From: Liolophura sinensis
Taxonomy: Eukaryota > Mollusca > Polyplacophora > Chitonida > Chitonidae
Reading direction: 5' to 3'
Length of the DNA stretch: 64,000 nt
NCBI RefSeq assembly: GCF_032854445.1
Contig: NC_088303.1
Span: forward strand, 21,087,501 to 21,151,500
Shown piece after piece: positions 5,835-40,491 of this stretch (position 1 is the first letter of the stretch; every line of letters starts with the position of its first letter). Both the position numbers and the translations under genes were made by a program. The notes under the pieces are model-generated. The model did not search any database. It saw only the letters and a list, made by a program, of their open reading frames with translations, and was not told the origin of the DNA.

Positions 5835-8800
5835 ATGGGGAACATTTGGTCACGCCTATTTCGTCATCGCGAGGTTCGCATCGTCTTGGTCGGTAAGTTC
5901 AATCAAACTCACAGTTACGTGTGTGTTTTGTTGTTGTTGTTGCAGAGTCAAAGTGTCGCACTTGAGAAGAAATGCAGAGAAGAAATGTCTATTTGTACAT
6001 ATTGGGATGTACATGTACCTAAGACTGTCACCACTAAATGCATCCAACAATCCCCCCACCCCTCTGCTCTCCCTTGAGTTTTCCTCCTGTGTTATAGGTA
6101 CACTTAGTTACACAGGAGATACAGGGCCTAACCCTGATACAGTTGTCTGATTTGTGACAGCCAATGTAACCTCCATCATTTTCCGTTATATTTCACTTGG
6201 TGACAACATAGCTACATTGTTTGCCAGATGGCTTGTTAAATTTAGACTGAGTTTCCAGTGCTTTGTGCTTGGGCTCAACAGAGCACCAGCATTTTACATA
6301 TTTGCCGACTGCAATGTTAGAACGACAAGTTCATGACAATATGTAGGTCTTAATGTTTAATGTAAAAATGATGTTTACAATGAATGGAATTCATATTATC
6401 TCTCTGTAAAACAAAACAATAAGTGTTTTCAATACCAATAGTCTGTTGGCAAATACTGCATTTAATACTGTTTCGGAGTTCTTTCACATGTAAAGCATGC
6501 TCTTGCCTTTGTTTTAGATTTAAAACCAGTGTTATGAATTTGTATACAGTTTTCTCATTCACCTTCATAGCTGTTCTGAGAACTGAACACATGTGTTACT
6601 GGCTCTGAACATGATCTGACTCATTTTCACTTTCTGTATAGCACTCTTTTGAACCTAATGTTGCCTTTTTTCATTAAGTTGTGAAATTGACCTATCAGAA
6701 TGAATTTTGTCTAAAAGACTGCTTATAATCATGACAGTTACACAAAGCCTTACATGTTCATCTATATTATGGAAAACTATAAATGTACATGCAGGTTTAC
6801 TTCACCTTAGGTAAAACCTTGTGTTAATAAAAGTATGGTAAAGACAAGTAAGAAGGGTTATGTGAAATATTGCTAAACCATTTCGCTTTCTGTTTTTGAG
6901 ATATTTATTCAGCATTGTACATTCAGAAGCCTGTTGATGCACAAACATGGATTCTTTTCTCTGCTGGCCTTTATATTATTCCATCCATGAAAAACAGACA
7001 AAGTGTTCACCATGGTCACAGGGACCAAGCTGGTAGTTACGAACAATTACAATGTATGTAATTGAGTGTAATAGCAAACTGTCAATCTTCCCATGTGGTG
7101 GACTGAAGAAAATACAGCCAGTTCAAGTTATGATGTCACATGGCAGTAAGGTATAGAATTTTTATGAATAAGACAGCTCCTAAATGTATAGTTTATCCCC
7201 TTAAGAACAAAGTTTCCTCATAGTATGCTGTTCAAGCTGCATTTATTGTTTATATTTTCTCTTACATTGTTACAAGCCGTTGGTCTACTGTGTTGTTTAT
7301 TTTACCAGTCTACAATGATGACAATGGTCTGACTGTCTGTATTGAATGAGATGCATGTATGTATAATCAGTCAGCTTGAATTTACACAAGCTACAGTGGA
7401 CTTGTGTCTTATTTTACTGCGGGTATTCAAATGTTGTTTATATCATAGCTGTTCAAATGTGCTTGTACAAGATACGTGTACCATACGGTGTCTTTTAGTT
7501 TTTACTAGGCAGTCCAAATAATATGGTCAATTGCTTTAAATTTCTCCTTAAAAAGTTAATTCTTTGAGGCACGTAAATGTCATAAAATATTACCTTCGAA
7601 AAGTACATTTTTCCAGCTGGATTTGTCATATTTAATTACCTTCCAAAGAAAGCTCATAACATGTTTTAAATAACAGTAGAACTCACAGTAACAGGCAAAA
7701 TGTACAAATTAATCTCAGGCAAAATGAAGGTCATTTGTTGTAAGTACATACAGTAACATTTGATTTTTTATCCATATTTCTGAAACAACTGAATCTAAAT
7801 CTAGGCAAAACTATATTTGTTGGGGTGGTCAAATTCAAACATACTCAAAAACTGTGGTTTTATCAGCCCTCACAGAATAGGGCTCTCGGAGTATGCTTGA
7901 ATAAACATCTACTTAAGTCTCATGAAGATTTTGAAGAATTACCATATATAAATAAACAGCACTACATTAATGTTTTTCGAGCTTGTAGAATTTTTTTTGT
8001 TAGAAGGGTGTTGCAATATGCCTCTTTTTATGTCAGTCAAAGTGTTAATAGACACATGTACATGCACATGTACATGTAGGCAGTGGAAATTGCCCCCCTT
8101 GTGAAGAAATGTACATGTAGCTTTGTTATGTGCTGTGATTTTCACTCAGAATACCATCCCCCGTTGTTTGGGATCTAGCTTACTCTTGATACAGAGCAGC
8201 TGATAGTGGAGATGGGAGTTTTGGGTTGTTCTGCTTACATGTACATATAAATATTCTTTATGCTGAAAGCTATATATGGTGGAGATAACGCGACAAGAAT
8301 ACTTCAGCTCTATACTTGTTCTCTTGAAACTATGAGTGTGGATCAGCAGTGAATAATTCATTGTACTTGTAGGTGTGTCTACGTGTATCTCACACCACAG
8401 TCAGTATATTAAAGGTTGATTCTGTTTACCCTTGCTTTTGGTTAAAATCAGTATTTATTTTCTCATGGAAATAGTGTTTCTGACATAAATTTCATGAAGA
8501 GCTAAATTTACATGAGGACAACTTTACATATACATCGCCGCTTCAGGTGGATTTAGCAGAATTTGAAATCAGACTGTCTAGTTTCCAATTTTCTCCTATT
8601 TTCCCTTTCTCTTCCATATTAATTTTAACAGAATAGGTCGCGTCAGCGACATTGAGACACCCTCTGGCTAAACTATCGCCCTGCATGTACTTTTGATACA
8701 ACATTTATATTAGCTTTCTCTATTGGAATTTTTTTCATGTTTTTTGTTTTTCATTCCTAGAAAACCAGGGTAGAGATAGCTGGTTGATCCTACTGATGGG

Positions 8801-11800
8801 TAGTACATATCCATGTTGAGGAGGATGAAGAAAGTATGATGAGCCAAGTGTGCATGTGTAAAGTGTAGATTAGACACAGCTGGATCTGCTCTGCTCTCTT
8901 CACAGTTTGGTGATCAGCCAAACTTAGCAGTAATATCACCCTGGTTTATCATGGAGACTTAGCACAGAAATAGCACAGGTACATAAACATGATGCTAGTC
9001 TACATTCACTGCTTAGCATTTACTGCATTACAAGCTTACCAACAGGCAGTTTGTTTGAACTGGAATTTTCCAGAATTCCCCAATGTCCATAGGCTTGTAC
9101 ATGTATCACATGTATGCCGTATTTGACCGAAAACTTGGCTCTATAAAAGACATAATTCTTCGTTCTTGAAGTTTTAAACAGTATTTGAAACATTCAGAGA
9201 CATCTATAGAGAGTAGGGAAATAAATCTGACAATTGTATTAATTAGAGGAGAGGAAAATGTAAATAACAATCAAATACCATTGAAAAGTACCTCAAGTTG
9301 ATAAATTATAAATAAAGTTGGCGCCAACATCAACTGTGGGTGACAGCCTAAGAACTAGTCCTGAAGTCTTCTGTGTTAGCAGGAGAATTGCTGTCGGAAA
9401 CTGCCGAAGTGCAGTTTGTACATTTCCGGTAGAACTCTTCTTCCCAGAAGGTAGCAAACAGTACAGTTCGTTTTCCGCTTGCCAATCGGGAAACTGGAAT
9501 GTTGGACGTAGGTTACGAGTTTACATGAACAAGCCGTCAGTTTTAAAGACTCATTGGATGAGAGGCAACACACCCCCAGCATAAATTACAGGGTGTTAAA
9601 GACGGAGGACGAGATGGACTCAGCGATTTATGCCAGCTTTGCCATTTTCAGGCTTTACATGTATGGCGAGGAAAAGTGGCAAAATTATGCAGCAGGCACC
9701 ACCAGATAGAAAAAAAATTGCTCTTTTCAGCCTATAGTGTCATGTTTTAAGTTTTCTTCTCCTTTAAGCTTGCATCTTTTATGGCACAAATAAATCATTT
9801 CAGTGTCATTTTCATAATGCATGTAATTGTGTGCATAAATTTCACCAAAAAAAGTGCTTTAGAGGTTGAAAAGGTTGAAGATTTACAGTGTACTTGTATT
9901 AGACATTGGACTTGACATACAGACAATGTTCGATATTCCAAGCTCTCCATAGTGATGATCTTGACAAAGAGGTCAGCCATTGTAAAACAAGGTTCTTAAA
10001 ACTGGATAAAGTCATTTATGCTTCTGAAATTATGAATATTTGCATGATTCAAAGTCATCTTTGTGATGACCTAGGCTCAATTTGATGTGATCAGTTTCAG
10101 TTTTTGGGTGTTAAAAATGAGTGAATGATAAAACAGTTTGACCCCTGGAAAGGTACAGTTGTGTTAATTGTGATATTCTGGTCTTTGTTAGTCTGAAAAT
10201 TAATAGCTGATACAAAGTCAGAATTACTGTAGCATTAAGAAAACAGTGTTTTTATAGCGTACAGCTTTGACATGTTGAGGACAGGACAATCAACTTGAAT
10301 TATAATGGTACAGGTATGTGTTTCTGAAAGCTATTAGCTAGGAAGAAGAAAACATATGTCAGGTCTATATCCTGTAGTACCGCTGAGAAGGTTGAGGTTA
10401 AAAACCTAACTTAAGAGTAACTCTGAAGAAGGAAGACGTCATTGTGAATGAATGTACATGTATTTTCCAGGCTTTATTTTGCCATGCTTTATTTTGCTGT
10501 CACAGGAGAGTGAGAGTAGTATGTAGTGGCAAAATAAAGCTTATGAAATATTGAATTAAGTTTTTACTTTTGCCGAGTGGCACTTCTGCTTGTATAGGTA
10601 CTGAAAGCTCCTGTTGGATAGGCTGTTGCATTTACAGGGAAGTGCAATATTGGACCACACTGAAGTCTTTGTTGTTTCTGTACTACTGTATGTGCATACA
10701 TAACAAATAAATTCCTAGTAGATATATGTACAGTGAGGCATTCACTGGGAGGTTTGTCAGCAGGTCAGGAAAGGATGCACGCCTTACACGACGCTAACAG
10801 GTTTTCCTGATGATCAGCCGGTTTTCCTTTAGCTGTATGAACATTTGCTGATGTCATTTGTGGAGAGACAATACAATATTAGCATGCATGACACAGCTGA
10901 GCATTGTCAGTTCAGTTATGTGCATAATGATGAATTCATGTACTAAGAATTGATACATGTACATGCATGGATTCCATTAATTGTACAAAAGTCATGTAGA
11001 CGTCACACCCTGATTATGATAGTTGATTATCAGCCTAGCATATCATATTTACAAGGTCATATTAAGACTGTGACAGCTCTGTGTTGTCTACTGTACTGTC
11101 CTCTGGAGAGACTATTCAATCGGAGTCCTATGCGGATTATGTCCGTATGGGTCAGTAGTGAAACAGAGAAATTTGGAAAGGTGCTTTTTTGTACACATAC
11201 AGGTTGGGGTGGGTGGGGAGGAGAGGAGTTGGACTTAAACCTTCCTAGTGCAATAATAATATGATGGCAAGGTAAATGTTTTAGCATCCTCTTGTCTGTC
11301 CATAAATCATTGAGTGCAGGCTCGGGTAATTTCACAATCACACGATCCACACAGTAGATATTGTGAATCCTGTCCAGTTTCATTGTCGGACACTTTGTTT
11401 ATACTACGTCATACTACTTCCTGTGAAGGGAGACTGTTATATACCTCCGGAAGCAGGAGAGTCAGACGATAGCTCAAGCGAGCACGTGTTGACATCGTGG
11501 TGAAATTTGTCTTGTATAGTCCGGAATAAAAGTAGTATTGGATAGTTAAAGAACAGTGTTTATTGAAGTAATTTAGCGGAGTATCACTGGTAGCAGTACA
11601 GCGTGAAATGGCAACTAATTACAAACAGCCTCCACGGTTTGACGACCAGACAGCCTTCGAGACGTGGACAAACGAAGTAGAAATATGGCGTCGGGTAACA
11701 GATTTACCAGCCGAAAAACAAGCCCTGGCACTTTCACTATCTTTATCAGGAAGGGCCCGAGAAACAGCTATGGAACTGCCTGCTGACGAATTAGCCTCAA

Positions 11801-14800
11801 GAGGTGGTATGGACATTTTGTTGACAAAATTAAAAACTGTATTTCAGAAAGAGATTAAAGACGCATCATACGAAGCCTACTCCAAATTTGACACTTACCG
11901 AAAATCTACCGATCAGTCAATGACAGAATACATAATTGGATTTGAACAATGTTACAATAAAGCCAGAAAGTTTGAAATGACTTTGCCAGATGCGGTTCTC
12001 GCCTTCAAGCTGTTAGACAGTGCAAACCTGTCTCACCAAGAACGACAACTTGCGCTTACAGCTGCTACAGACTTAACATTTGATGCAATGAAAGGGTCCT
12101 TAAAACGAATTTTTGGTAATGGCTCAAATTCAGACACCCGTTTTGAAGGAATTCAAGTTAAAACTGAGAGTGCTTTTTACACACAGAGAACCCCCAAGCA
12201 AAATAAACAAGCATTTAACTCCACTCAAGACATAAGGACCCAAGAACCATTAAAAGGAACTAACCCCTTGAACAGATTTGGAAAGCGTTCTCGGTGTGCA
12301 ATCTGTCAAAGTACTTACCACTGGGCCAAAGACTGCCCTCATAGAATACAGGGAAATGTTAATATAACGGAGATTCAACCAGAAGACACAGAAAGTTGTA
12401 ACATTACACTTTTTGCTAAAGAGAACGGACAGGAATGTGAGTTTGAAGTTTTTATGGCTGAAGCAAGCTCAGCTGCTGTAATTGATACCGCATGTACAAG
12501 AACAGTGTGTGGTGCTACATGGCTTGAGGATTATATATCAAAACTTGAAAATCAGCAGAAAATTATACAAACTGAAAACAGTGTGAAAAAATTTAAGTTT
12601 GGGGATGGAAATGTAGTGCAGTCAACAAAATGTGTAACTATTCCAGCAAAGATTGGACGGACATGCTGTAGTATAAAAACTGAAGTTGTAGATGCTAACA
12701 TTCCTCTTCTTTTGAGCAAGGCTTCTCTGAAAAAAGCTGGAGCAATTCTGGACTTAGAAAATGACAAAGCTATAATGTTTAATGAACCTGTCACACTTAA
12801 CTTCACTTCAAGTGGGCATTATTGTATTGATATTCTAGACCAAAAATGTGTGGAAGATGATGAGTTGAACAGTCTGGATGAAGTGTTGTCTGTTTTGGAT
12901 ATCTCAAAAATGTGTAAACAAGAACAACAAAAAACATTAGCCAAAATACACAAGCAATTTGGCCACGCATCAACTCATCGGATGTCCTGTTTATTAAAAG
13001 GTGCTGGACAAAATGTTAATGTTTTTTCGGGAAACTTACAGGAATTGGTAGAAAACTGTGACATTTGTAAAAAACACAAAAAACCCAGGCCCAAACCAGC
13101 TGTTAGCCTGCCTCTGGCCACATCATTTAATGAAACAGTAGCCATGGATCTTCATGAATTACAACCAGGTGTTTGGTACTTGCACATCATTGATCTCTTT
13201 ACAAGATTTAGTGCAGGATGTATTGTTAAAACAAAACAAGCTTCAGAAATCACAGCAAGATTTATTCAACACTGGATAGGCATACATGGGGCTCCTCAAA
13301 AAGTTTTCACAGATAATGGTGGGGAATTCAACAATGCTGAATTCAGAGACATGGCGGAAAATTTCAACATTCAGGTTCTCACTACAGCAGCATACTCTCC
13401 ATGGAGTAATGGCATAGTTGAACGACATAACCAAACGCTTACGAGCACATTATTGAAAATTAGAGCAGATAACAACATTGACTGGGAAACAGGACTTAGC
13501 TGGGCCTTGATGGCGAAAAACTCCATGCATAATGAACAAGGTTTTAGTCCACATCAGCTAGTTTTCGGTAAAAGCCCCAATCTGCCGTCTGTTATAAGTG
13601 ACATGCCTCCAGCATTGGAGGGTACTTCAATGAGCTCTGTTGTGGGAAAACATATCACTGCGCTGCACGCTGCACGTAAAGCGTATGCTGAATCGGAATG
13701 TTCTGAAAAAATTCGTCGAGCACTGCGGAAAAAGGCGCCCTCATCCACAGAGAAATTTTGCACTGGGGATATGGTTTACTACAAGCGCATAGACAGCCCT
13801 GAATGGAAAGGACCAGGGGTTGTGATTGGTCAGGACGGTGCTGTGACATTTGTGCGACATGGAGGTACATGTATCCGTGTTCATCACTCAAGACTACAAA
13901 AAATTACACGTCAAGCAGAGATTGAAGAGGATCTTGAATTAAAGGGGTTTCAGTCTGAACAAGGTTCTGTCAGTGTGGAAAAAAATTCGAAAAATATTTT
14001 GGAAGATAACTATGAAACCTCTGATGATGATTATGGTCCAGAAGCAGGCAGTGACAAATATGCTTTGCATCAACAACAGACTCTGCTCAGCAATATTAAG
14101 ATTGGCCAGGAGGTAAAATTCATGCAGAATGGAATTTCTCATACAGCACAAATCCTTAGTAGGGCAGGGAAGGTCACTGGTAAATATGTGCACTGGTACA
14201 ACGTTCAATTCTCTGAGCCAGGCGACAAAGCCGGCAAACAAGGATCTGTGAATTTGAGCAAAGTGGATATTCTTGAAGTTCGAAATGTTGAAAGTTTAAG
14301 TGGTTCTTCTCATGATAATGTGTTTAACATTGAGGATGTTTCTTTTGATAAAGCTAAGCTGGAGGAGCTGGAAAGTTGGAAAAGAAATGAAGTGTATGTG
14401 GAAGTGAAAGATGAGGGACAGCGTTGTGTGTCGACGAAGTGGATATGTACTCTGAAAGAAAAAGCGGAAGGGATACAGCCGAAAGCACGCCTTGTGGCAA
14501 GAGGTTTTGAGGAACTTGACAAAGACCTGCCAAAAGATTCACCAACGTGTTCTTCAGAGTCACTGCGCTTGATAATAGCAATGTTTGCTCAAAATAAGTG
14601 GCAGCCGTTTTCCATGGATATCAAGACAGCATTCTTACAAGGGTCTCCTCTTTCTAGAGAACTGTATGTACGACCGCCATTGGAAGCAAATGCCGGTGGA
14701 ACTGTTTGGAAGCTAAAAAAATGTGTGTATGGCCTGGCTGATGCCTCTTTGTACTGGTATACACGTGTGAAGCAGGTTATGAAGGAGTGCGGTGGTCAGA

Positions 14801-17800
14801 TGTCCACTGTCGACCCAGCTGTGTTTTTTTGGCCAGACAATATTGGTGGTGTGAAAGGTGTATTGGCCTGCCATGTGGATGACTTTATTCTAGGAGGCAA
14901 CTCGGATTTCATGCAAACGGTAGTGCCTGCCATACGGTCAGAATTGTGTGTGGGCCGGGAACAAAGCTCTTCATTTCGATACCTGGGGATGGAGCTCTTA
15001 CAGTTCCGTCCTGGGGAACTCTACCTGCACCAGGAAGAGTATGCCAAAACCATACATCCTATGATTCTTACTTGGGCCAGAAGACAACAAACTGATTCAC
15101 CTTTATCAGAAGAAGAAACCAACATCTACCGTTCCAAAGTGGGCCAAATACTCTGGTTAGCTCGCCAAAGCAGGCCAGATTTGATGTTTGACTCGTCAAC
15201 ATTGGCTGCAGGGGTAAAAAATGCAACAGTGCAAAATGTTGTTGAACTTAACAAAGTCATCAGGAAAATGCAAGCTGAACGTGTTGTTCTAAAATTTCAG
15301 CATTTAGGCAATACAGAGTTACAACAGCTTGTGGTATTCAGTGATTCCTCCTTAGGAAACCTTTCAGATGGAGCAACTCAAGGTGGTCACCTCATTGTGC
15401 TAATGGGGGCTGAAGGAAAATTTTCACCAATTCATTGGCAGTCAAAACGGATAAGGCGTGTTGTAAGGAGCACCTTGGCTGCTGAAACGCTTGCTCTGAC
15501 AGAAGGCATCGACAATTGTTTATTTTTGGCTAATCTCTATGCCGAGATTACTGGAGGAAAAATTGGAGCTCAGTCGATACCCATTGTTTGTGTAACAGAT
15601 TGTCATTCGTTGCTCGATGCAATTCGTTCAACGAAACATGTTGCAGAGAAACGGTTGCGCTTGGAAGTGAGTTATGTTCGGGAACTGGTGGCTGAAAAGC
15701 GTATCTCCAAGATTTTGTGGTCTGCTACAAAGCAGCAGCTTGCAAATTGCCTTACTAAGAGAGGTGCTTCTGGAAATGTTTTGTTACAGGCAATCAGCAG
15801 CGGAGTCTGGAATTTATAAGCTGTCCAAAGAACAATATCTGTTATCTTATTACTAATTTTGTTTGGCTAAATTAGAAAAAAAAAAAAAAACAGTTTGTTC
15901 AAAATTATCTTTATTTTATAACTGAAAGAGGGGAAATTGTGAATCCTGTCCAGTTTCATTGTCGGACACTTTGTTTATACTACGTCATACTACTTCCTGT
16001 GAAGGGAGACTGTTATATACCTCCGGAAGCAGGAGAGTCAGACGATAGCTCAAGCGAGCACGTGTTGACATCGTGGTGAAATTTGTCTTGTATAGTCCGG
16101 AATAAAAGTAGTATTGGATAGTTAAAGAACAGTGTTTATTGAAGTAATTTAGCGGAGTATCAGATATATGTATGCGGAGGTGTAATTCGTAGACGTGTAA
16201 ACACGTTGTGTAACAAAGACAGTCAGGCCACATATACATACTGAGTCCATCCTGTTAACATGTTAATGTAAACATCTGTGCCACTCACATGACTTGCATC
16301 TCTTCAGTTGTAGGCCTACATATTATGATTTAGTAATTTATTAAATCTTAATTCATTTATTTATTTATTTGATTGGTGTTTTATCCCATACTGGAGAATA
16401 TTTCTCTTATATGAAGGTGGCCAGCGTTATTGTGCGAGGAATCCGGGCAGAGATATGCGGGATCAAATCTTAAACCTCTACATCTACTTTTGTAATAAAA
16501 TCTGGTGTGTCCACAACCATATTCAGTGCAGTTTGATGTGCATTCATTGGATTTAGTTGAGTATGCAATTGGAAAACATTATTCATAAGATTTTGAAGAC
16601 TAAAATGTACTGTTCAGGTGGGGTCAGAATGTTTAATATTTTGAGTTTTTCATAATGATGACTTAACAAAAATTGAGGTCCTCCAATATGATATTAAAGG
16701 TGTAAAATTTTATAAATTTTATTGTAAAACAATCATTAAGAAGGAAGTGGATAATATATAATATACATGAAACCATCACATATCTGAATATTTACATGAT
16801 AGGTTATCTTTGAGATGACTTGGGCTCAATTTGAGATCATGATTTTTATTTTGAGCTCTTCGAAACGAATGAATGAGCAAACATTGTGACCCTTTCATAG
16901 TGGCATATGAGTATGGACGTTAACTTCACAGAAATGATAAACCGATCAGACCAGTTAACATTCCCTCTAATATGCCAACACATGTAAAACCTATGCATGT
17001 CTTCGAATTTGTTGAGGATTTAGGGCATAAACCTGGAGAAGTTGACATTTATGAACTGTATAATAGAAACGTAGGAAATTGTATTGGTGAGTAAGTGAAA
17101 TGAAGATTGAAAGTGGCATACAGGCATACCACTAGCATACCACTAGCAGGCTATGGTCTGGCTACAGCCTAGGTTACCTTCAGGGAAGTTTCAGCTTGGA
17201 GGCTTAGTGCTCTGTATCTCCCTGCATGGTTTGTACATGTAGTTACATCATACATGAACATGAATAATGATTTTATAGTGTGATTCAATGATGATCGGTG
17301 ATTGCTGCTATAAGGTAGCAGATGTGTATGGTCCAGAATTTAACTGTGCATGTACATGTATCTGCTGTTGGACATCAATCATGTTTATGGAGCTGTAAAC
17401 TCCTGTGTTAATTACTACGTTATTTATGCTGCTGTTTGCCCAGTTCTTCAGCGTGTGTTGTGTTGATGGATAGCACACATGACAGGCCTCAAGTTTAATA
17501 GACAACTCAGCCACTGTTGGTTCATGGGAGCATGTAATTGTGATACAGATACTGAAATGACTGTAACAGTTGCTTCCTGACATCATGTATGTATGTATGT
17601 AAAACGGCGAGGGGTGAAAGTGTACATCTAGATGCACATGTGTTTATTTGTTTGATTGGCCAAGTATGGAATTTGCGCCAGAAATCTAGTGCATCTGGAC
17701 ATGCTTTACTAACTTCATACATCTAGCTCATCTCATGACCATATAGGTATGTACCCCAGCAGGAAAAGTTCACAAACCAAGCTTTGTCAACTCATGTCTA

Positions 17801-20800
17801 TCCTATTGTTTAGTATACATTTAATGCACGAGTTATCCGCTTTTTTTAAGATGAGAAAGCGTGCACCAGTTAACCCTCTGTTAACAAGAATCCACTTTGG
17901 TACAAGTTTTGAATCAAGAAGTGCAACTGACATCTGCCATGTTTCATGCACAAAACTCACTGTGAGTTCAAGTCCTGCTCATGCTGGCTTCCTCTCTGGC
18001 TGTAAGTGGGAAGGTCCGTCAGCAACCTGCGGATGGTCATGGGTTTCCCCAGGCTCTGCCTGCTTTCCTCCCACCATAATGCTGGCCGCCATTGTATAAG
18101 TGAAATATTCTTGAGTACGGCGTAAAACACTAATCAAATAAATAAATAAATATTCAGTGAGAAAGATATGGCTGAAATATTGTTGATGTGGTGTTAAGCT
18201 ATTTTTAATCATCCATTCTAGTGTTGAGCTTTAACTACATGTGCATTTGTTCAGTGATATACGTAACCTACCACTGACTAAAATGCAAAGCAAACACAGG
18301 CTGTTGAAGTTGAGGGAGACTGTCATGCTCTCCTATACCACCTAACTGTAACTCCAAAACAAATAACCAAAATGGTTTTGAATGCAAAATGGTCATGTGT
18401 GATGGCTTTCTCTGGGTTTGGCATTCACCCTGCATGTACCCCATATATGTACATCTATTTTTCAAATCATTATTTTCAGCAATGCCACTTTTTGGAGGTA
18501 TAGAATTCCATTAGGTGATCAGATTATTAACAGAAAATTCAATATTATGTTTTGTGGAAGCTAGTTCTGTTTGGTTTTGGTGTGAGGACGAGCAATCAGT
18601 AATCATTTAAAGACAATAAATAGAGAAATCAAGAACACAAATTTGATCACACGAGTCAGAATTGTTACAACCAGGTTGTCCTTAGCTGTCCTGTACAAAG
18701 TACAGTATTAGCTTTATGTTGAACCTGAGCATCGACAGCGGCGTATTGTGTAGTAAAATCAAAGTTAAACTAAATGTTAGGGGTGGTATCTCAAAGAGTA
18801 TCGCATATATTAAGGTGGATTTTTACATACATATAAAGCATAGTGGCATTACGGTGATGTTTCATCACTGATACTCTGTGCACATATTACTTACCGTAAA
18901 TATTCAGATTCACGATATCAGTACTTTATGTATTGAGCTGAAGTTTTGCATTCATGTGAGTGTCTCCCACAGGTGAGCTCTTCGGTAGCCTTGCTACCAA
19001 ATCTAAGTTCTTCCACACATTTGTTATTCACAATTCAACCTTTTTTTGAGGTCAGCAACAATTTATTGCTTTCAGCCATCAAGAGCATGCCAAGAAGGGG
19101 TGTCAGATGGGAAATTGGGCATTTGGGATCCATTCATTAGAACAAAAGTATCTTTCATGACTCTTGACACACCCTGATGGCTCAGTTGATGGAGCGTTCG
19201 CTTCGGGGATGATGGACATAGGGGCAATCCTGGGTCAGGTCACACCTAAGACCTCAAAAGAGGAAGTTGTAGCTTCCTCGCTTGGTTTTCAGCATTAAGC
19301 ATGTTAAGTGGATATTGCAAAGACTGATTGACACGTATCAGTATAATGGCCCGGGTGGGCGGCTTACTTGCCTTCAGTAAGTCGTTTCATTGAAGCAGCA
19401 CTGGATAAAAGAATGGTGGAAATCCGTCCTTGATGAAGGAGGCATATTACTCACTCACTCACTCACTCACTCATTCAATCACTCACCCTTCTTCTGTGTT
19501 TTGTAGGTCTTGATGATGCTGGAAAGACGACATTATTGTACAAGTTAAAACTAGGAGATATCAGTCACCTTGGCAGTCACATCATCCCAACTATTGGTAA
19601 TATCGCAAAACGGAGTCTGGTTTTCTGTGCTTTCTTTTTTCAAGAGCTGCTCCATGTACATTATAGCAAGTTCTGTTCTGTTAATATTTTGCAGTGGGTA
19701 ATAGGCCTTTCATTGTAGCTTTTGCATTTTTGGTATTCTGTATGCAACATTACATATATTTTAAAAAATAAATTAATAATTAGTACTGTAGAGAAATAAG
19801 CAAAAATGTTTGCATTATTGGACATCTTCAGGATGTGACTCTTGAATAATCTGTATAACCATGATTCATAAATTATGTGATGTTTGGGAGTGTGGCATCG
19901 GATGTCAAGCTGTTGCAGGAATTTGTATTTAAAAAAAACTGGTGCTTGTTTTACGATACATGTACTTACTTAGCATGATAGAGATACACGAAACCAGCTA
20001 TTATCAGTGAACAGCTTTGCTAATTATAGAAACAGAAGTGCAGTTTGGACTTTTTTCTGTTACTTTAACATGGGATAGATAATTGTGCAGGGATAAAAAA
20101 AAACTGGACATCCTGTTCAAACACATTGGAATTTGTTGTTTCCTGTTACATTTCTGGCTAACTTCTTGTGTGACACACACAAATTTCTGTGAAGTACATG
20201 TAGATTTAAAACACAAAAGTAAAACAAATAAAGTCAAATAAATAAATCAAATAAATCAGTTGTACATGTATTCATTTTTTATTGTTGTGAGGAAGTGATG
20301 AACGGGCAGCTATTGTACATTACCGGTCGGTGGAACGGGATGTGTAGTTAGGACGTCATGGTGATTCGTTATACATGTACAAGGATCGCAAATGTATTCA
20401 GCTGTACAATGAACTTATCTCCTTCTTTCTCATGGTTAGACTTTCTGTTTGTTATACTTTCAGGGTTCAATGTGGAAAGTTTTGCCCACAGGGACCTACA
20501 GATAACAGCCTGGGACATTGGCAGCCGGGACAAAATGGTGAGACATGTAACTACATAGAACACACACAAAATGGGATTTTCTTAATATACTAACATGTAA
20601 TGTACATGAACACGGCAGGAAGAGTGTCAGTTTGTTCTTTTTTGTTGGCATTTGCACGTACATGTGCACAAGTGTTTAAAATAGCTACAGAATGTCACTG
20701 GCCATTTGGACCAGTTTTCATTATACATAAAGGACTACTGGAGAAATATTTGATAGGACTATTCTACCATTTATTTTCGTCCTAATTGATGGCACGTAGT

Positions 20801-23106
20801 GAGAGTCGTATATTTTTATGATCATTTATGTATAAATGTAGGTACAGGGATCAAAATGTTTTCTCATTCACTCATTTTTTAAGAGCTCGAAATGAAAATG
20901 ATCACCTCAAATTGAGCACAGGTTATTATACATTCACTTAGATTCACGCAAATCTTCACAATTTCAGACTCATAAATGATTGGTTATTCTACTTTATCCA
21001 CCTCAACGTTATTTGAAAATGTTTTTAAGTTGAACCTAACACATTTCGTACCTTTTAATCATATGGGAGAACCTCAGGTTTGGCAAAGTCATCACTGTGG
21101 TGAGATAGCAGATATTTTGACCTCTGAGGTAATGTCAGAGGCAAATTAGTTAAATGTTGATAAATTTCAGATTGATCAGACCAGTGATTGTTTGGCATTA
21201 CCAAATTCCACTTGTCTGTATTAAATTTATTTATTTGATTGGTGTTTAATGCCGTCCTCAAGAATATTTCACTTTAATATATGATGGCGGCAAGCATTAT
21301 GGTGAGAGGAAATCGGACAGAGCTTGTGGGAAACCCATGACTGTCTGCAGATTGCTTGCAAACCTTCCCATGCAAGGCGGTAGAGGAAGCCAGAGGCACT
21401 CTATCCACGGAGGCCTCACCTTTGTTAGATATTTACACATGTACATGTATACCTGTAGAGTAGTATGTTGTGATGTTGCCTGTATTTTATTATTAACACT
21501 TTTGAAACTGACGTTGTTTAGCTTGTCAAATGTTAATCTTGACAAAGGTTATTTCACTATGTTTTTTTGATTTTGCTTGCCAGCGCGCTCTGTTCCGACA
21601 TTACTACAAAGGGGCTGATGCTGTTGTCGTGGTGATTGACAGCAGTGACAGAGAAAGGCTGGATGAGCTCAACTTTGATGTGATCAAACCTGCCATCCAA
21701 TCAGAAGAGCTGGAGACAGCCACGCTGCTTTTTCTGGCCAATAAACAGGATTTGTCCCAGGCTATGTCTGTTGAGGAAATCACAGAGAAACTAAACTTGA
21801 AATCCATCGTACACAACTGGAGTAAGGCTCTATACTTCTACTATATGTACCATAGGCTTTTGAACAAAATTCTGTTATGCTCTCTCTATTTATCTATTTG
21901 ATTAAATTTTTAGGCTGTACTCAGGATTACTTCATTTATACAGTGGCTGCCAGCATTACGGTGGGAGGAAACCCACGACCATCTGCAGTTGTCGGCAGGC
22001 CTTCTCAAGAAAAAGCGGAACCAGAGAGGTTCCGCTATGCAAGATCAACTGGCACCTAAGTTACAGACACTAACAGGAGTTCAACACAGAGGAACGGAAT
22101 AAATTTATTTCACAGTACACATAAAAGAAGGGTCAGCTCCTAAAATAACTCCCTGCATATCTGAGTTGTTATTGGGGGACTTGTTTTGAGACATATCTGT
22201 GAGTTCAAGTCCAGCACATGCTGGCTTTCTCTTCGGACGTACATGGGAAGGTCTGTCAACAACCAGCAGATGGTCCTGGGTTTCCCCGGGGCTCTGCCTG
22301 GCTTCCTCCCACTATAATGCTGGATGCTGTTGTATTAGTGAAATATTCTTGAGTACGGTGTAAAACACCAATCAAATAAATAAAAAAATAATTTTGAGAC
22401 AAGATAGGTGTAATTGACGAAACAACAACATAAGCTACATGGTTTTCATGGATATTGCCTGAAAACCAGTGAACACGGTTTGCAGCAATGCTTATTGCTA
22501 TTTCCTGATGTTGCGTCAAGGAAGGAAGTCACATGCATTTGTTTTCAAAACAATGAAATACTCTTATAAGGAAAATCACTGATTGGTCGAAAAATCCAGT
22601 GCCATAATTATACAGGAACGAACATAGTTTTAACCAGAATTTGAAATCAGGCTGTCTCATTTCCAGTTTTCTCCCCCTTAGCTAAACCTATGGCACCCAG
22701 TCTCATTGACTGTCGAAACAGTAAGCTACTGAATGCCTTCACATATGCAGTCAAGCAAGGCAGCCAGATGTGTAATCTTCCAGCCTGAAAATCAGCATGT
22801 ACAACTGGAATAAGATGATCATTTGTTTCCCTTGATTAACATTTAATGTTGTGCTTTGTTTTCACAGGTGTGTTCCCAATAAGTGCCCTGAAGGGTACAG
22901 GGGTCAGTGAAGCTTTGGATTGGTTGGCCTGCCAATTGGGGTCACTGCAAGCGAAGAAGGCAGTAGTGGCCCCTGTGAGGGAATCTCCTGTGTTGGAGGC
23001 AGCAAGCTCTGATGAAACAGACAGAACACCTCAGAGGAAGGACTACTGTAACCGGGCATACACTGCCATCAAATGTCTGTTTAAGACCTCACGAACTGAA
23101 TCATAA
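5835..23106 (+). CDS. ARF/ARL-family small GTPase, five exons, divergent switch II
   Basis: Exons: 5835-5892, 19507-19596, 20464-20537, 21584-21821 and 22868-23106 (stop TAA). All introns are GT-AG and the joined frame is 699 nt, giving 232 residues. ARF-type proteins are GTP switches on membranes. Visible features: N-terminal MGNIWSRLF with Gly2 for N-myristoylation; P-loop GLDDAGKT at 20-27; switch I Thr in IPTIG (Thr48) preceded by about four extra residues relative to ARF1; WDIGSRDK at 66-73; NKQD at 127-130; G5 motif SAL at 159-161. ARF1 has Gly70-Gln71 in switch II; here they are Ser70-Arg71, so the catalytic Gln is missing. The ARF fold ends near 175 and is followed by a polar tail of about 57 residues of unknown role. 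Intron 1 is 13.6 kb and hosts a copia element in the same orientation. I cannot assign a specific ARL number. Confidence 0.9.
5893..11361 (+). other. First part of intron 1 of the ARF-like gene
   Basis: No second gene is supported here. The stretch holds repeated acatgt/catgta words (for example 8053-8079) and decayed dispersed repeats. One at about 9975-10150 recurs at 16775-16905 and, inverted, at 20850-21010. Another at about 8560-8690 resembles 22630-22730. Short ORFs near 9318-9584 and 10950-11383 occur on both strands without domains and are treated as chance. Confidence 0.5.
11362..11586 (+). repeat. 5' LTR of the copia element
   Basis: 225 bp, beginning TGTGAATCC and ending GAGTATCA. 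It contains a TATATA word at 11438-11443 and an AATAAA at 11525-11530, consistent with promoter and polyadenylation roles. Confidence 0.95.
11588..11596 (+). other. Primer-binding site, initiator-tRNA-Met type
   Basis: One base after the 5' LTR comes TGGTAGCAG, which fits the complement of the 3' end of eukaryotic initiator tRNA-Met. The match is short (9 nt), so the tRNA identity is likely but not certain. Confidence 0.65.
11608..15819 (+). CDS. Copia Gag-Pol polyprotein, intact, 1403 residues
   Basis: A single uninterrupted frame encodes all retrotransposition functions. Residues 1 to about 210 are a copia-type Gag region, followed by a CCHC zinc knuckle starting CAICQSTYHWAKDC (230-243). 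The aspartic protease site is DTA at 293-295, where DSG or DTG is usual. The integrase has an HHCC finger from His448, then the core Asp in VAMDLHE, the second Asp in FTDNGGEF and a Glu in GIVERHNQ. The reverse transcriptase has SMDIKTAF (Asp1004) and HVDD (1089-1092) in place of the usual YVDD. RNase H begins at VFSDSS (Asp1246) and carries the AAET motif. No frameshift separates gag from pol. The ATG is 22 bp after the LTR end. It probably belongs to one of the animal copia clades, which I cannot fix without a tree. Confidence 0.96.
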   Translation: MATNYKQPPRFDDQTAFETWTNEVEIWRRVTDLPAEKQALALSLSLSGRARETAMELPADELASRGGMDILLTKLKTVFQKEIKDASYEAYSKFDTYRKSTDQSMTEYIIGFEQCYNKARKFEMTLPDAVLAFKLLDSANLSHQERQLALTAATDLTFDAMKGSLKRIFGNGSNSDTRFEGIQVKTESAFYTQRTPKQNKQAFNSTQDIRTQEPLKGTNPLNRFGKRSRCAICQSTYHWAKDCPHRIQGNVNITEIQPEDTESCNITLFAKENGQECEFEVFMAEASSAAVIDTACTRTVCGATWLEDYISKLENQQKIIQTENSVKKFKFGDGNVVQSTKCVTIPAKIGRTCCSIKTEVVDANIPLLLSKASLKKAGAILDLENDKAIMFNEPVTLNFTSSGHYCIDILDQKCVEDDELNSLDEVLSVLDISKMCKQEQQKTLAKIHKQFGHASTHRMSCLLKGAGQNVNVFSGNLQELVENCDICKKHKKPRPKPAVSLPLATSFNETVAMDLHELQPGVWYLHIIDLFTRFSAGCIVKTKQASEITARFIQHWIGIHGAPQKVFTDNGGEFNNAEFRDMAENFNIQVLTTAAYSPWSNGIVERHNQTLTSTLLKIRADNNIDWETGLSWALMAKNSMHNEQGFSPHQLVFGKSPNLPSVISDMPPALEGTSMSSVVGKHITALHAARKAYAESECSEKIRRALRKKAPSSTEKFCTGDMVYYKRIDSPEWKGPGVVIGQDGAVTFVRHGGTCIRVHHSRLQKITRQAEIEEDLELKGFQSEQGSVSVEKNSKNILEDNYETSDDDYGPEAGSDKYALHQQQTLLSNIKIGQEVKFMQNGISHTAQILSRAGKVTGKYVHWYNVQFSEPGDKAGKQGSVNLSKVDILEVRNVESLSGSSHDNVFNIEDVSFDKAKLEELESWKRNEVYVEVKDEGQRCVSTKWICTLKEKAEGIQPKARLVARGFEELDKDLPKDSPTCSSESLRLIIAMFAQNKWQPFSMDIKTAFLQGSPLSRELYVRPPLEANAGGTVWKLKKCVYGLADASLYWYTRVKQVMKECGGQMSTVDPAVFFWPDNIGGVKGVLACHVDDFILGGNSDFMQTVVPAIRSELCVGREQSSSFRYLGMELLQFRPGELYLHQEEYAKTIHPMILTWARRQQTDSPLSEEETNIYRSKVGQILWLARQSRPDLMFDSSTLAAGVKNATVQNVVELNKVIRKMQAERVVLKFQHLGNTELQQLVVFSDSSLGNLSDGATQGGHLIVLMGAEGKFSPIHWQSKRIRRVVRSTLAAETLALTEGIDNCLFLANLYAEITGGKIGAQSIPIVCVTDCHSLLDAIRSTKHVAEKRLRLEVSYVRELVAEKRISKILWSATKQQLANCLTKRGASGNVLLQAISSGVWNL
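15924..15936 (+). other. Polypurine tract before the 3' LTR
   Basis: GAAAGAGGGGAAA lies one base upstream of the 3' LTR start at 15938, the expected place for plus-strand DNA priming. Confidence 0.8.
15938..16162 (+). repeat. 3' LTR of the copia element
   Basis: 225 bp, matching the 5' LTR base for base by eye. It is followed directly by the GATAT target duplication. Confidence 0.95.
16353..16465 (-). repeat. SINE family A, 3' fragment
   Basis: Tail (tttatttatttgattggtgt) and the first part of the core in minus orientation; truncated before the head and well diverged. Confidence 0.7.
16466..17957. other. Intron 1 of the ARF-like gene, no further gene
   Basis: Contains a second copy (about 16775-16905) of the dispersed repeat seen at 9975. 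Minus-strand ORFs at 17308-17722 have no domain, and the sequence has acatgta and tgtatgta simple words, so they are not called. Confidence 0.45.
17958..18151 (+). repeat. SINE family A, head partly missing
   Basis: Starts near the B-box-like word gagttcaagtcctgct and runs through the core and tail to aaataaataaata. The A-box part of the head is absent. Confidence 0.85.
19168..19487 (+). repeat. SINE family C copy, full length, with ACTC tail
   Basis: The tRNA-like head has an A-box word gatggctcagttgatggagc, then a body with cgtatcagtataatggcc and gcagcactggataaaag, and ends in an (actc)n tail at about 19450-19487. The same family occurs at 42883 and, inverted and truncated, at 41670. It lies just upstream of exon 2 (19507) of the ARF-like gene, so its tail approaches the splice acceptor. 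Confidence 0.8.
20850..21010 (-). repeat. Dispersed repeat, inverted copy of the element at 9975 and 16775
   Basis: The reverse complement shares words such as gctcaattt, gagctct and gaatgag with the two plus-strand copies. No tRNA-like head or terminal repeat is obvious. It lies in intron 3 of the ARF-like gene. Confidence 0.5.
21222..21400 (-). repeat. SINE family A, truncated copy in intron 3
   Basis: Tail, gattggtgtttaatgccg and agcattatggtgagaggaaa are present in minus orientation; the head is missing. Confidence 0.8.
21885..22010 (-). repeat. SINE family A, truncated copy in intron 4
   Basis: Diverged tail and core (ccagcattacggtgggagga) in minus orientation, starting about 60 bp after the exon 4 donor. 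Confidence 0.75.
22196..22389 (+). repeat. SINE family A, truncated copy in intron 4
   Basis: Runs from gagttcaagtccagcaca to the A/T tail in plus orientation. With the minus copy at 21885 it makes an inverted pair about 190 bp apart within the same intron. Confidence 0.85.
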
Positions 23107-29914: not shown

Positions 29915-32900
29915 CTATAAGTACACCTTCTCACAAATTTTCATGAATTCTATGATAGAACGTGATAATTCCTCATCAGGGTTTCCCTCGCTGACCACAA
30001 CCGCTCTTCTCCCGTACTCCTTGGCCTGAAACCACAAAATTACAAGACTGATTACCTAATGTGATCAACAAGTGTCACTATTTGATCTTCTAACATGGTG
30101 AAGTTACCACCTCCTTTGTGATGATGTGGAATTTAAGTTCAGACCATTCCAGCAAACATTTCCAAGGATGAATGATGTCATATACATGCAATACAGAAGA
30201 TGTTTGGGTACAACCAATCATGAATGATGTCATATAATACAGAAGATGCTTGGGTAGAACCAATCATGAATGCTGTCAAATAATACAGAAGATGTCTGGG
30301 TACAACCAATCATGAATGCTGTCACATAATACAGAAGATGTTTGGGTACAACCAATCATGAATGATGTCATATAATACAGAAGATGTTTGGGTACAACCA
30401 ATCATGAATGATGTCATATAATACAGAAGATGTCTGGGTACAACCAATCATGAATGCTGTCACATAATACAGAAGATGTCTGGGTACAACCAATCATGAA
30501 TGCTGTCACATAATACAGAAGATGTCTGGGTACAACCAATCATGAATGATGTCATATAATACAGAAGATGCTTGGGTAGAACCAATCATGAATGATGTCA
30601 TATAATACAGAAGATGTCTGGGTACAACCAATCATGAATGCTGTCACATAATACAGAAGATGTCTGGGTACAACCAATCATGAATGCTGCCATATATATG
30701 TAATACAGAAGATGTTTGGGTACAACCAATCATGAAAGATGTCATATAATACAGAAAATGTTCGGGTACAACCAATCATGAAAGCTGTCATATATATGTA
30801 ATACAGAAGATGTTTGGGTACAACCAATCATGAATGCTGTCACATAATACAGAAGATGTCTGGGTACAACCAATCATGAATGATGTCATATAATACAGAA
30901 GATGTCTGGGTACAACCAATCATGAATGCTGCCATATATATGTAATACAGAAGATATTTGGGTACAACCAATCATGAATAATGTCATATACATGTTATAC
31001 AGAAGATGTCTGGGTACAACCAATCATGGATGCTGTCATACACATGTACATGTTATACAGAAGAAGTCTGGGTACAACCGATCCTGAATGGTGTCACACG
31101 ATACAGAAGATGTCTGGGTACAATCAATCATGAAGAATGTCATGTACATGTAATACAGAAGATGTCTGGGTACAACCAATCATGGATGCTGTCATACACA
31201 TGTACATGTTATACAGAAGAAGTCTGGGTACAACCGATCCTGAATGGTGTCACACGATACAGAAGATGTCTGGGTACAATCAATCATGAAGGATGTCATG
31301 TACATGTCATACAGAAGATGTCTGGGTACAATCAATCATGAAGAATGTCATGTACATGTAATACAGAAGATGTCTGGGTACAATCAATCATGAAGGATGT
31401 CATGTACATGTCATACAGAAGATGTCTGGGTACAATCAATCACAAAGGATGTCATGTACATGTAATACAGAAGATGTCTGGGTACAATCAATCATGAAGG
31501 ATGCCATGTACATGTCATACAGAAGATGTTTGAGAGCAATCAATCATGAATCATACAATCATTTAGAATAATGGGACATACAATTTGTCCCTGGAGAAAG
31601 CTCTATCAGAAAACACATGAATATCTGTACTAGAATCAAGACATTTAATTATGAATTATACAATTTCCCATTCACAGTTGATATTCTAGAATCATAATCT
31701 ATCAAGGCACTGGTATACCAATCACGTTGGTAGTAATGCTATTTTGTGTGGCCTTGCACGAAGTTCAGTGAAGATCATTTGCCTCGGCCTTACACTGACA
31801 TATAAAACTGGTCACATCTGACCAGCTCTGCCAGCTTTTCTCTCACCATAATGCTGGCCGGTGTCATGTAAGTGAAATAATCTTGAGTATGGGGTAAAAT
31901 ACCAATCAAATAAATAAATAAATAAATAAATAAATCAAACAACTGGATCAAGATACAGATTTCAGAGGGGTGAAGCAGGCATTTGCAGGAATCCAATTGG
32001 CAGAAGGAATACTATAGAGCCACCTGTGCTGATGTGACTTACCTTATCTAGATCGTAGAGCACATAATACAACATGGCCAGAGAATAGGCAATCCTGGCC
32101 ATGTCCTCAGGCTTGCGGTTAGGCTGATGCTCCCTCATGTCAAATACTGCATTTAAAACCTGGATAGCTTCTGCCTCCTGGGCCTCATCTACAACATGTT
32201 ACTTGTGAATTACAGGTAGATGGTCGTAACTTTCAGTCCATACATGTATAACCAAACAATACATTGTCACAGAGTCTAAGTTTGTATTCATGTACATGTA
32301 GTTACTGTTTACAGTTAGAGAGTCAGTTCTGCCACAGCCGATTAAATCATATACCAGTGAGATCACCGGTTCAAATCTGGCCGTTGCTAGTTTGGCTACT
32401 TATTAAAATCAGGAGATTTGATTGACTTGTCTGGTACCTGGTGAGCTTCAGCCATTTCCTCCAACTATAAACCTGACTAATGTCATATATCGAAGTGAAA
32501 AATTCTTGAACACAGCAGATGGAACATCAATCAATAAAATAAATGTTTGCAAAAACAACTGTACAGAGCCATTGTTGTACACACAAGTGCAGATCTATAC
32601 TGTACACACATCAGTGCTGTTGCTGTAACATATCAGTGCCACTGCTGTACACACATAAGTGTCATGGCTGTACAATCATTAGTGCCATTAATACTGTACA
32701 CACATCACTCTCATTTCTGTACAACATTAGTGTTGTTGCTGTACACACCACAGTGCTGTTGCTGCACACACATCAGTATCCTTGCTGTACACACATCAGC
32801 ATTCTTGCTGTACACATATCAATGTCATTGCTGTGCACATATAAGTGCCGTTGCTGTACATGCTTTATTGTAGGTAATGTACGCACATCGGTGCAGATCC

Positions 32901-35900
32901 AGCCAGCACTCAAATCATTGCAAATGAAGTATGCACACAGGTGAGGATTCAGCATGTATAATATAAATGCTGATTCAGCACCCACAAGACTGTGAGTGTT
33001 GGATACAGGGTATTGCTGTGACTCTTTCAAAAAAATATTTTTGTAAAAACATCAAATGAAGTTCTGCATGTGTGATGTTTACAAATTGCCAACCTTCAAC
33101 TGGCCTATTTTGATCTTTGGAAGTCATACTTAACTTTTTTTCATATGTCATTTGATTATTTCTCCAAACAAAAAAATTCCTGTATCCAACAGTGAGTTGA
33201 GTAAAGATCCATACACAATATGAGTAATAAAAATAACAAAGCAATTTTTACCATAAAAAAAAAATCAGTGTGTCAGATTAGACAGCTTGATGCTAGATTA
33301 TTCTGTAAAACTTGGCATAGGTGATAATTACCCAGCTGATCTTCCTCCTCTTGTTTACTGTCTGTAATCACAGGTCCCACCCCTACAGGTGTATCAGGTG
33401 TCCTCGTTCTTACCTGGATGATCTTACTCAGGTAATCATACCAAATCTGTGTCACCTACAGAAAATCAAAGGCCATTGTTATACTGATAGCTCTGTAAAC
33501 ATGCAACTGTATCACTCCAGGATTTGCTCCATTTTTTCCACTCACAAAAACACATTCACATCCTTCAGATATTATTAATCATGGGGTATATATGTAAAAT
33601 AACAATGTGACAATTTGAAATCAAATAAACAAGTGATCACACATGCACATCACATGTTTACACTTTAAAACAATTTGTATTAAGAATTCAACTGGTAATA
33701 ATAGAAAATTTAAGGAATTAACTCGGAGAAGATTGAGGTTGACATATCACCCAATATGAAGGTTACTGACACCATATATTCTTGTATCCTGTCACTGAGC
33801 ACATGTAACCATGTAACTACATGTAACAGTACATGTCCTCCGAGGATATGCTGTATTTCGCCTAAGCCTTAGCATTTTTCAAGTGACACATTTTCCTTAA
33901 TTCTGATTGATTCATTCACCTTAGAATGATACCTAAGAGTTTTAGAAGTTTCAAGTTGATATATTTCTTATCACAAAAAGTTAAGTTTGGCAGGAAAAGT
34001 GTCATTTTAAACTTTTGGTGAAAAACAGTATTCTGAATTATAAAGACTCACTTGTCTGTAGAGTGAATCAGCAATATCCATCTTTCCTTGCCTGAAGAAG
34101 ACATTGGCCATGTGGAAGTAACCTCCAGCTGTGCGAATGTCATCTGTTCCAAACTCATCAGAGGCATGGTATATCTAGAAACAGTCATGACATTTACATA
34201 CATACATTAACAGCAATATAGGCCTACTGAGGCTGTATTAAGCTGGACAATACACTTAATGCACAGATACATTACAATACAAAAAAATACATACTAGTAT
34301 GAGTTTCATTGCACTATATTTGAATGTGTTTAAGAGTTCTTATTCTATAATCCTCAACCATTTTGGAATTACATACAAAGACTATCAAAGACTATAAGTT
34401 TCATGTTTTCCTCCCTTTGGTGCATGGGCAAAACGCTCGCCAAATGACATACATTTTACATAGAACAGACAACTCTATTATAAAACAGGAAGATGTTTTT
34501 GCTGACAAAAATGAATGGAGAGATAACACACGCCAAGTGTAACAGAACAACCTCTCATGTTAATTTCATTCCATGATCCTCGGTAAAAGCTATTGTGACA
34601 TCATGACGTCACAGAAAGGTTAAACATATGTAACCAGTATATGGTTTTGCGACTTTGTAGTAACTTACAGATACAGTATTTATTTACGTATTTTACTAGT
34701 TGTTTAATAATGCCATTACTCATGAATTTTCTAACAATATGGCAGTTGAAAGTCCTCTAAATCTGAAGGACATGTATCAGTATATGATACTAGCCAGACA
34801 ATTTGTTCAAGTTCCTGTTATATCCCTCAGCTTAAACCAAACCAGGATTCAAAGTCACTTACATCATCAGCAAGCTGGCGCAGTGCCTCATCATATTCCC
34901 CTTTGGCAGCGTATAACAGGCCCAGATTACGGAATAACTTGGACTTAATGGCATTGGAACTCTCTGGCATTTTGAGAACAGTCCACTGGGCTTGTGCAAG
35001 ATACTCTTCAGCCTGGGGAAGACGACCAAGACCTGCCACAAAACAAACAAGGCAGTCAGAGAATACCAGTAACTCATCTGACTGAGCAGTTTGTGCAGAG
35101 CCCCGTGGATAACCCACAACTATTCACAGGTTGCTGGCATACAGTACTTGCTCTGTCCCCACCACACAGTTTGGTTTTAAGGTGTACTTGTCTACGAGTA
35201 CAGCTACATGTAGTCATGTTGTTTAGCCACACATCTGCTTGAGTTTCTCTTGCACTGCAGAAGGATTTATTTATTTAATTGCTGTTTTAAGCCATACTTA
35301 AGAATATCTCACTTATATGACACTTATATGGCCAATGTGACAGTGGGAGAAAACAAGGAATTCCACAACAAATCCACAGGTGGCAGTCAGACCTTCTCCC
35401 TTATGATTGGAGAGGTAGCCAGCATGAGCTCAGGGCTTGAACTCACCGTGACTGCACTAGCACGCTGAGCGACTCAGCCACGGAGGATCCCATTGCATAA
35501 AGAGGGAAAGGAAATACCCAACCATCACTTCAATCACAATATTTTGCTGATTTTCTTTTCACTTTATATAATCAGTCCTTCTCACTGCAAAAATATCACA
35601 AAGATAAACAACTCATTTACTTGGAACAACCCTGAGGAGCTGTTCTATTCTTCAACCCTAACTTCCAACTTCCATGGAATTTGTTTCACACTCTAAAGTC
35701 TGGATTCATAAATTAAAGTGAGAAGTGTGATGATATATACATGCATACATGTTCAATGGAGACCCGTCAATCGCTCGGCAGCTGCACCTTATTTATTACA
35801 TTATTTAACTGATCCCTGATTTAACTGTCAATCATGTCAATGGTTCCTTTCCCAGCTCATCATGATTAACATTAAAAAGTGTATCAGTTTCTACTGTAAC

Positions 35901-39235: not shown

Positions 39236-39314
39236 CGTGCTGAAATCAAGCTTCCTGAGCGAGAGACTAACAATCCACTTTATCCTCCGGCCGCCATCGA
39301 TGTTGTTGTTATTC

Positions 39315-39328
39315 GTTACCGTGGAAAC
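39315..39328 (-). promoter_or_regulatory. RFX X-box in the ZMYND12 promoter
   Basis: GTTACCGTGGAAAC matches the RFX consensus GTNRCC/N-N-2/RGNAAC-like pattern: two half-sites with a 2-bp spacer. It lies 80-93 bp upstream of the ATG. RFX factors drive ciliary genes through X-boxes placed at about this distance. The match is visible; function is inference. Confidence 0.6.
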
Positions 39329-40491
39329 AGCGGGCACTAGCTGGCGGCACAAAATGCGGAATTGATTTTCATTCTAATGTAAGTAAACCTTATTCACACA
39401 ATCTTATTACAGGTTCAAAGAAGCATAAATAACCAAAATATTCATTTTTCTTCAACTGTCTGAAATAATTCCCCCAACATCTCGTGATACATGCTTGACC
39501 CGATTGACGTGTTATAAAAGAGGGGAGGTAACAAGGGCCTAGGAACTAGATTACTTCTTTTGAATTTTTTTGCAAAGTTGTCTCCCCTGTAAAGAGAGAT
39601 TCTGGAAAAGCGACAGCGATGCGAATCGCATAAAGCCGTTTCTCTTTCAAATGGTGGGGTTCTAGTTCAGATAGACAAACCGCATTTTGGGTAAAATCTA
39701 AAATCTTGGAGGAAGGCAGGATAAACAGTTAGGCCTTTTGGTGAAATGTTATAGGCCTATATAATTTTGGGGTTTTGAGGCACGAAAGTTAAGTACTATC
39801 CTAGCCAAATAGGCTAGAGTCCTGGAAATGCCCACGTCCGGAAGTTCTGATCTATCAGATAGCTGGGGCAGAATTTTTGGTTCCTAATGTAGGCGTTTAA
39901 ACAAACGCGTTTATCAATCGTCAGTCATGATTTACTTTCAGGGTTATTAATTAATCGCAGACCAATTTCCCAAGCTCAACACAATCAACTAAAAGCGATA
40001 CGTTACAAAGGACTTCGTATGGGGTATGGCAGAGAATCGGCCCAGTACAATAAACTGTGCACCTCCAGAAAGCGAATCTGACTATAGCTCTGTGAGTGAC
40101 AGCTGCTGATACGCTCATAAGACAACTTCTTTTTGCAGTTCTGTTTTACTCTTCTTTTAATGTTATATGACAAGTATGCGAGTTATAATGCTCTAAACAT
40201 GCACCGAAACGATGTATAAATCATTAAATCGAAAAATTGCATCCTACTCCGGTCACAATGAAACTGTAAAGTGGGCAAAATAATTGCTCCACAAACGCAA
40301 TTTCCGAAAAATTCTTGAGCACGCAATTATGCACCAATCAATTAAATAAAGATACAACAATTGTAACTTACAGTCTTATACTTCCGGTATGCATAACATG
40401 TTCATGATAGCTAAAGGACCACATATGATTTCGCTATAGTTTCCACACGTTATGTAATACCATACCCTGATAATTATCCACTCTAATTCTG
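39329..40491. other. Upstream flank of ZMYND12, no gene seen
   Basis: No supported exon on either strand. A short SINE-tail-like remnant (aaaattcttgagcacgcaat) lies near 40308. ZMYND12 and the next exon-like segment (40996, +) point away from each other. Confidence 0.4.

Follow-up and report, generated by a model that had tools for sequence, protein, structure and literature searches.

A gene on the forward strand of the Liolophura sinensis window (the whole stretch of 64,000 nucleotides analyzed here) encodes an ARF-family protein in which the switch II residues Gly70 and Gln71 of ARF1 are replaced by Ser and Arg, specified by the codons AGC CGG. We consider as evenly balanced the proposal, built on sequence comparison, that this protein is a divergent ARF1-related, ARF-like GTPase, encoded by an apparently functional gene, whose cycling would be atypical in a direction that is left unspecified; several known relatives also cycle abnormally, each by other means.

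The gene model comprises five exons (Table 1) which splice to an open coding sequence of 699 nt, encoding 232 residues without internal stop, the four introns having GT...AG borders and matching phases (1, 1, 0, 1). In the protein, these introns fall at Gly20, at Gly50, between residues 74 and 75 and at Ser154. Exon 1 was located by listing all ATGGG frames 5' of exon 2 (13 frames), and in-frame stops are present immediately 5' of its Met-Gly start. Exon 3 is bordered by the acceptor ...tttcag/GG and the donor ATG/gtgaga and, following an upstream phase of 1, reads (G)FNVESFAHRDLQITAWDIGSRDKM. The first-pass annotation had proposed a 232-residue product with Ser-Arg embedded in WDIGSRDK and with the GLDDAGKT, NKQD and SAL motifs and Gly2 present, all of which are borne out by the spliced model. 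The N-terminus (MGNIWSRLF, with a hydrophobic moment of 0.45 for residues 2-13) displays a trait of canonical ARFs, a Met-Gly preceding a short amphipathic helix, here a predicted one, and Gly2 is a candidate N-myristoylation site. At the other end of the protein, residues 181-232 form an extra C-terminal tail with a pI of 9.1. The GC3 of the coding sequence is 0.53, as compared with a GC content of 0.39 for the window, and the GTPase gene is apparently intact and functional.

Table 1. Exons of the ARF-like GTPase gene, its first intron and the retrotransposon that this intron contains (positions within the window).
Feature	Position	Strand	Content
Exon 1	5835..5892	+	MGNIWSRLFRHREVRIVLV and first base of Gly20; Met-Gly start; donor G/gtaagt
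Exon 2	19507..19596	+	P-loop GLDDAGKT; four-residue insert (aligned SHLG); switch I IPTI(G)
Exon 3	20464..20537	+	(G)FNVE...WDIGSRDKM; switch II, with Ser70-Arg71 replacing Gly-Gln
Exon 4	21584..21821	+	RALFRHYY (Phe for Trp78); DSSDRER; ANKQD
Exon 5	22868..23106	+	SAL motif; C-terminal part and extra tail; stop TAA
Intron 1	5893..19506	+	13.6 kb; contains a Ty1/copia-type retrotransposon in sense orientation
Ty1/copia-type LTR retrotransposon	11362-16162	+	Intact-looking; located within intron 1

The retrotransposon of intron 1 is bounded by a pair of identical LTRs of 225 nt (TG...CA) and flanked on both sides by a GATAT target duplication, features which point to a recent insertion; a single stop-to-stop frame of 1415 codons contains its rve and RVT_2 domains. 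Other repeated or mobile sequences are found in the window. A tyrosine-recombinase fragment (Phage_integrase, 8.4e-9) at 45660-46037 on the + strand, which perhaps belongs to a mobile element, directly follows a 56-bp tandem array (44795-45517), and a reverse transcriptase fragment (RVT_1, 5.9e-8) is located at 54251-54625 (+). Two further tandem arrays have units of 46 bp (30168-31551) and 62 bp (62229-64000, some 28.6 copies, with three + frames staying open to the end of the window), while the core of a short interspersed repeat occurs in 17 copies (nine + and eight -) with at most 4 mismatches in 23 bases. On the - strand, a PAN-domain stretch (3.5e-7) is present at 57855-58112, and open stretches between 34833 and 39373 resemble exons from a gene of the MYND zinc-finger/TPR type, such as ZMYND12. 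For these stretches, the only Pfam matches were to TPR, below the cut-off, at 34833-35123; the stretch at 36157-36438 had no match and that at 39008-39373 no confident one.

By profile and motifs, the protein is a member of the ARF family. Its sequence without exon 1 matched the Pfam Arf profile with an E-value of 7.9e-48 and 162.7 bits (cut-off 22.3). As a control, 14 well-known prokaryote genomes were scanned with the profile, and 12 of them passed this cut-off as well. Since a bare match to this profile is not specific, the assignment relies on the high score together with the ranking of solved structures, in which ARF1 came first (E ~1e-43) among 278 distinct PDB sequences retrieved at E <= 0.001, followed, within the best 60 of these 278, by ARF3/4/5, ARF6, ARL1 and ARL3. 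Identity to ARF1 amounts to 78 of 159 aligned residues (49%) over the part of ARF1 shown in the PDB match. In a survey of more than 2,000 ARF-family sequences, 160 of which were unclassified, Arl19 and Arl20 have been described as Arf1/6-derived groups lost in vertebrates (PMC8358228). Arl20, which derives from Arf1 and occurs in unicellular holozoans and in invertebrates, has three unique introns and one in common with Arf1 (PMC8358228). The present gene is likewise Arf1-like by similarity and has four coding introns to set beside the three plus one of Arl20 as described, a likeness to be taken as a lead only; by its sequence, it may represent either Arl20 or a duplicate of Arf1.

The ARF domain of TRIM23/ARD1 has a Lys at the position of Gln71. 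This domain is also described as Arf1-derived (PMC8358228), and the ARF domain studied here may be derived from TRIM23. The TRIM part is, however, absent from the gene model, which, with stops just upstream of its Met-Gly start, lends no support to a TRIM23-type gene in which RING, B-box and coiled-coil precede the GTPase.

In two alignments to ARF1, the Ser falls on Gly70 and the Arg on Gln71. The residues had initially been counted as exactly 70 and 71, and this count holds; the agreement with ARF1 numbering is due to two compensating differences, an N-terminus four residues shorter (the P-loop glycine is Gly20 here and Gly24 in ARF1) being offset by a four-residue insert before switch I. 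Likewise, the ARF6 chain 2a5d is matched from its residue 20 onward. The insert, aligned between Ile42 and Val43 of ARF1 with an ambiguous exact placement, lies after the first helix, at the start of switch I. Among 29 functional positions drawn up from the account given in PMC3012027 and from the G motifs, 22 are kept and seven are changed (G70S, Q71R, I74M, W78F, F82Y, E106D and C159S). Those kept include Asp26, Thr48, Gly50, the N-[VI] motif, Trp66, Asp67, Gly69, Arg75, Tyr81, Asp96, Arg99 and ANKQD. The protein thus retains the P-loop Asp, the switch I Thr, the W-D pair, NKQD and the Arf/Arl/Sar salt-bridge residues (with Glu106 as Asp). These features and Gly2 are shared with ARF1, its closest solved relative among the best 60 of 278. 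It is unlike ARF1 in the four substitutions at positions 70, 71, 74 and 78, in an Asp replacing the P-loop Ala27, in the switch I insert and in its two termini. The W78F and I74M changes and the insert add to the switch alterations that the first-pass annotation had pointed out. As the protein has D-I-G-S-R in place of the D-x-G-G-Q motif of canonical ARFs, it is, judged by its sequence, not a canonical ARF.

It has been reported that the backbone NH of Gly70 senses the gamma-phosphate, that Gln71 acts in hydrolysis and that Trp78 forms a hydrogen bond with the backbone oxygen of Gly69 (PMC3012027). With the gamma-phosphate sensed by Gly70 and Gly69 held by Trp78, the changes in switch II affect a single functional unit. 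Between ARF1 positions 24 and 130, 47 residues are shared by two PDB chains of ARF1 and by two ARFs retrieved from sequence collections (L001 and L002, see below); the present protein differs at 13 of them, of which four belong to switch II (70, 71, 74 and 78) and nine lie elsewhere, a descriptive count based on only four references. Because the 13 positions are spread across the domain, nine of them outside the switch II sites, general divergence could explain part of the changes.

Loss of Gln71 is already known in several ARF members, whereas loss of Gly70 is less familiar in the literature surveyed. ARL10, ARL13A/B, ARL15 and ARL16 lack the switch II Gln (PMC12722892), which is replaced by His in Sar1 (PMC3012027) and by Ala in Arl15 (PMC9352346). 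Compared by their published descriptions, these proteins resemble the present one in lacking the Gln and differ from it in that they are described as losing this residue and not the preceding Gly. Arl15 hydrolyzes GTP weakly alone and faster with Smad4, and effector-cum-GAPs have been proposed for Gln-less proteins such as Arl15 and Sar1 (PMC9352346). The same glycine is replaced in ARL3 Gly70Glu, a human disease variant which is stable, matches the wild type in GAP binding and, unlike Q71L, shows no constitutive activity in an RP2 binding test; its authors nonetheless suspect that it cycles fast and yields aberrant ARL3-GTP, and in their AlphaFold 3 model the GDP-bound variant looks like the GTP-bound wild type (PMC12010153). 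This variant differs from the present protein in being a mutation and in having Glu instead of Ser, with no change of Gln71 reported in its description. Constitutive activity is described for ARL3-Q71L, and the dominant alleles of ARL3 are said to favor its GTP-bound form (PMC12010153). In titles and abstract openings, no ARF with Ser-Arg at the switch II site is named, and no ARF naturally lacking the DxxG glycine was found in titles, abstract openings and passages, which is weak evidence of absence.

With its nucleotide-binding motifs kept, the protein would still be expected to bind GDP and GTP, and it could attach to membranes through Gly2 and the N-terminal helix. Its nucleotide state would not be coupled to switch II in the canonical manner, the GTP state may be imperfectly sensed, and the usual stimulation of hydrolysis by ArfGAPs would be abolished or much diminished. 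A point against this reading is that Arl15 (Ala) and Sar1 (His) are published examples of hydrolysis persisting in the absence of the Gln (PMC9352346). Control would be exerted by exchange, abundance or a dedicated partner and not by ordinary ArfGAPs, as in a "pseudoGTPase"-type ARF, and the sequence is at most suggestive of pseudoGTPase class II/III (nucleotide bound, with defective hydrolysis or abnormal cycling). What speaks against atypical cycling is that nine of the 13 changed positions, attributable in part to general divergence, lie outside the four switch II sites and that Ser-Arg is seen in a single genome. A more specific proposal, which we put forward only tentatively, is that of an ARF paralogue with a longer switch I and a joint replacement of the gamma-phosphate-sensing Gly, the catalytic Gln and the supporting Trp of switch II; its membrane recruitment would be decoupled from the GTP/GDP switch, and it may serve as a constitutive platform or a GEF sink.

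The first-pass annotation had suggested that the protein binds GTP, hydrolyzes it poorly and acts as a long-lived switch. The retained nucleotide-binding motifs and the replacement of both switch II residues agree with this suggestion, which now stands as only one of several possibilities. In its strict form, i.e., class II behavior with GTP bound, very poor hydrolysis and a mostly GTP-loaded, long-lived active state, it appears unlikely. The Arg in place of Gln, the constitutive activity of ARL3-Q71L and the dominant ARL3 alleles argue for it, as do in part the aberrant ARL3-GTP suspected by the authors of the G70E study and the GTP-like model of the GDP form (PMC12010153). However, the Gly70 change strikes the gamma-phosphate sensor (PMC3012027), Trp78 is lost too, ARL3-G70E is not constitutively active when assayed by RP2 binding (PMC12010153), and Arl15, as described, hydrolyzes GTP with Smad4. 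Abnormal cycling of unspecified direction, for which the chances seem to us even, is favored over this strictly GTP-locked form.

In Ras, a change of the DxxG glycine (G60A) is reportedly associated with exchange-factor trapping. A GDP-biased form of the protein, in which the Ser at the DxxG glycine would block the switch and GEFs would be titrated, thereby restraining normal ARFs, is rather improbable. The sensing role of the Gly70 NH is consistent with such a block (PMC3012027) and the switch I insert could alter GEF contacts, but Ser is small and preserves the backbone NH, and ARL3-G70E is suspected of the opposite bias (PMC12010153). Less probable again is ordinary cycling through a substitute mechanism like that of Sar1 or Arl15, in which an effector-cum-GAP would supply catalysis. 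Both the faster hydrolysis of Arl15 with Smad4 (PMC9352346) and the His of Sar1 are in line with this analogy, although neither protein is described, in these accounts, as also lacking the glycine.

Several searches covered the window and two sequence collections. A six-frame regular-expression scan of the whole window gave two ARF-type switch II motifs, DKGGR at 51282 (+) and DLGGQ at 4980 (-), neither of them in an ARF-like context or within the GTPase gene. No + frame of introns 2 and 3 contains WDxGG or GGQ, a check that intron-split codons could escape; by these two approaches, no alternative exon 3 encoding GGQ was found. A tblastn search of the window with the 232-residue product (E <= 1) recovered its five exons plus a single weak match at 49540-49635 (E 0.22), and no second ARF copy. 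A-to-I editing restoring Gly-Gln was rejected by reasoning only, as it could convert AGC into a Gly codon and could not convert CGG into a Gln codon. In viral_contigs, pattern searches with the product (2 stretches) and with ARF1 (6 stretches) gave no relatives, and a nucleotide-level pattern encoding WDIGSRDKM, limited to AGY serine codons, had 0 matches; in genome_contigs, the product pattern search (113 stretches) gave no relative. A three-row alignment search retrieved one relative in 58 stretches of viral_contigs (L001) and one in 90 stretches of genome_contigs (L002), both with GGQ and W78. L001 (5001-5465) is an ARF open in one frame on a 58 kb IMG/VR viral contig, while L002 (1777-2327) is an ARF gene with an apparent intron on a contig labeled as a Gammaproteobacteria MAG, probably a eukaryotic contamination. 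Because these collections are viral and prokaryotic, absence from them says nothing on animals.

An artefact or a dying gene, be it an assembly error, a polymorphism or a pseudogene, is very improbable: AGC CGG is just two transitions from GGC CAG and comes from one genome, but all five exons have an intact frame and intact splice sites, the product is 49% identical to ARF1, and W78F, a further switch II change, lies in exon 4, ~1.1 kb away.

If confined to one species, this divergent ARF1-related GTPase would represent a modest lineage-specific paralogue. If conserved, it would add a member lacking the DxxG glycine to the atypical ARLs and would provide a natural test of whether an ARF keeps its function without the gamma-phosphate sensor and the catalytic Gln.
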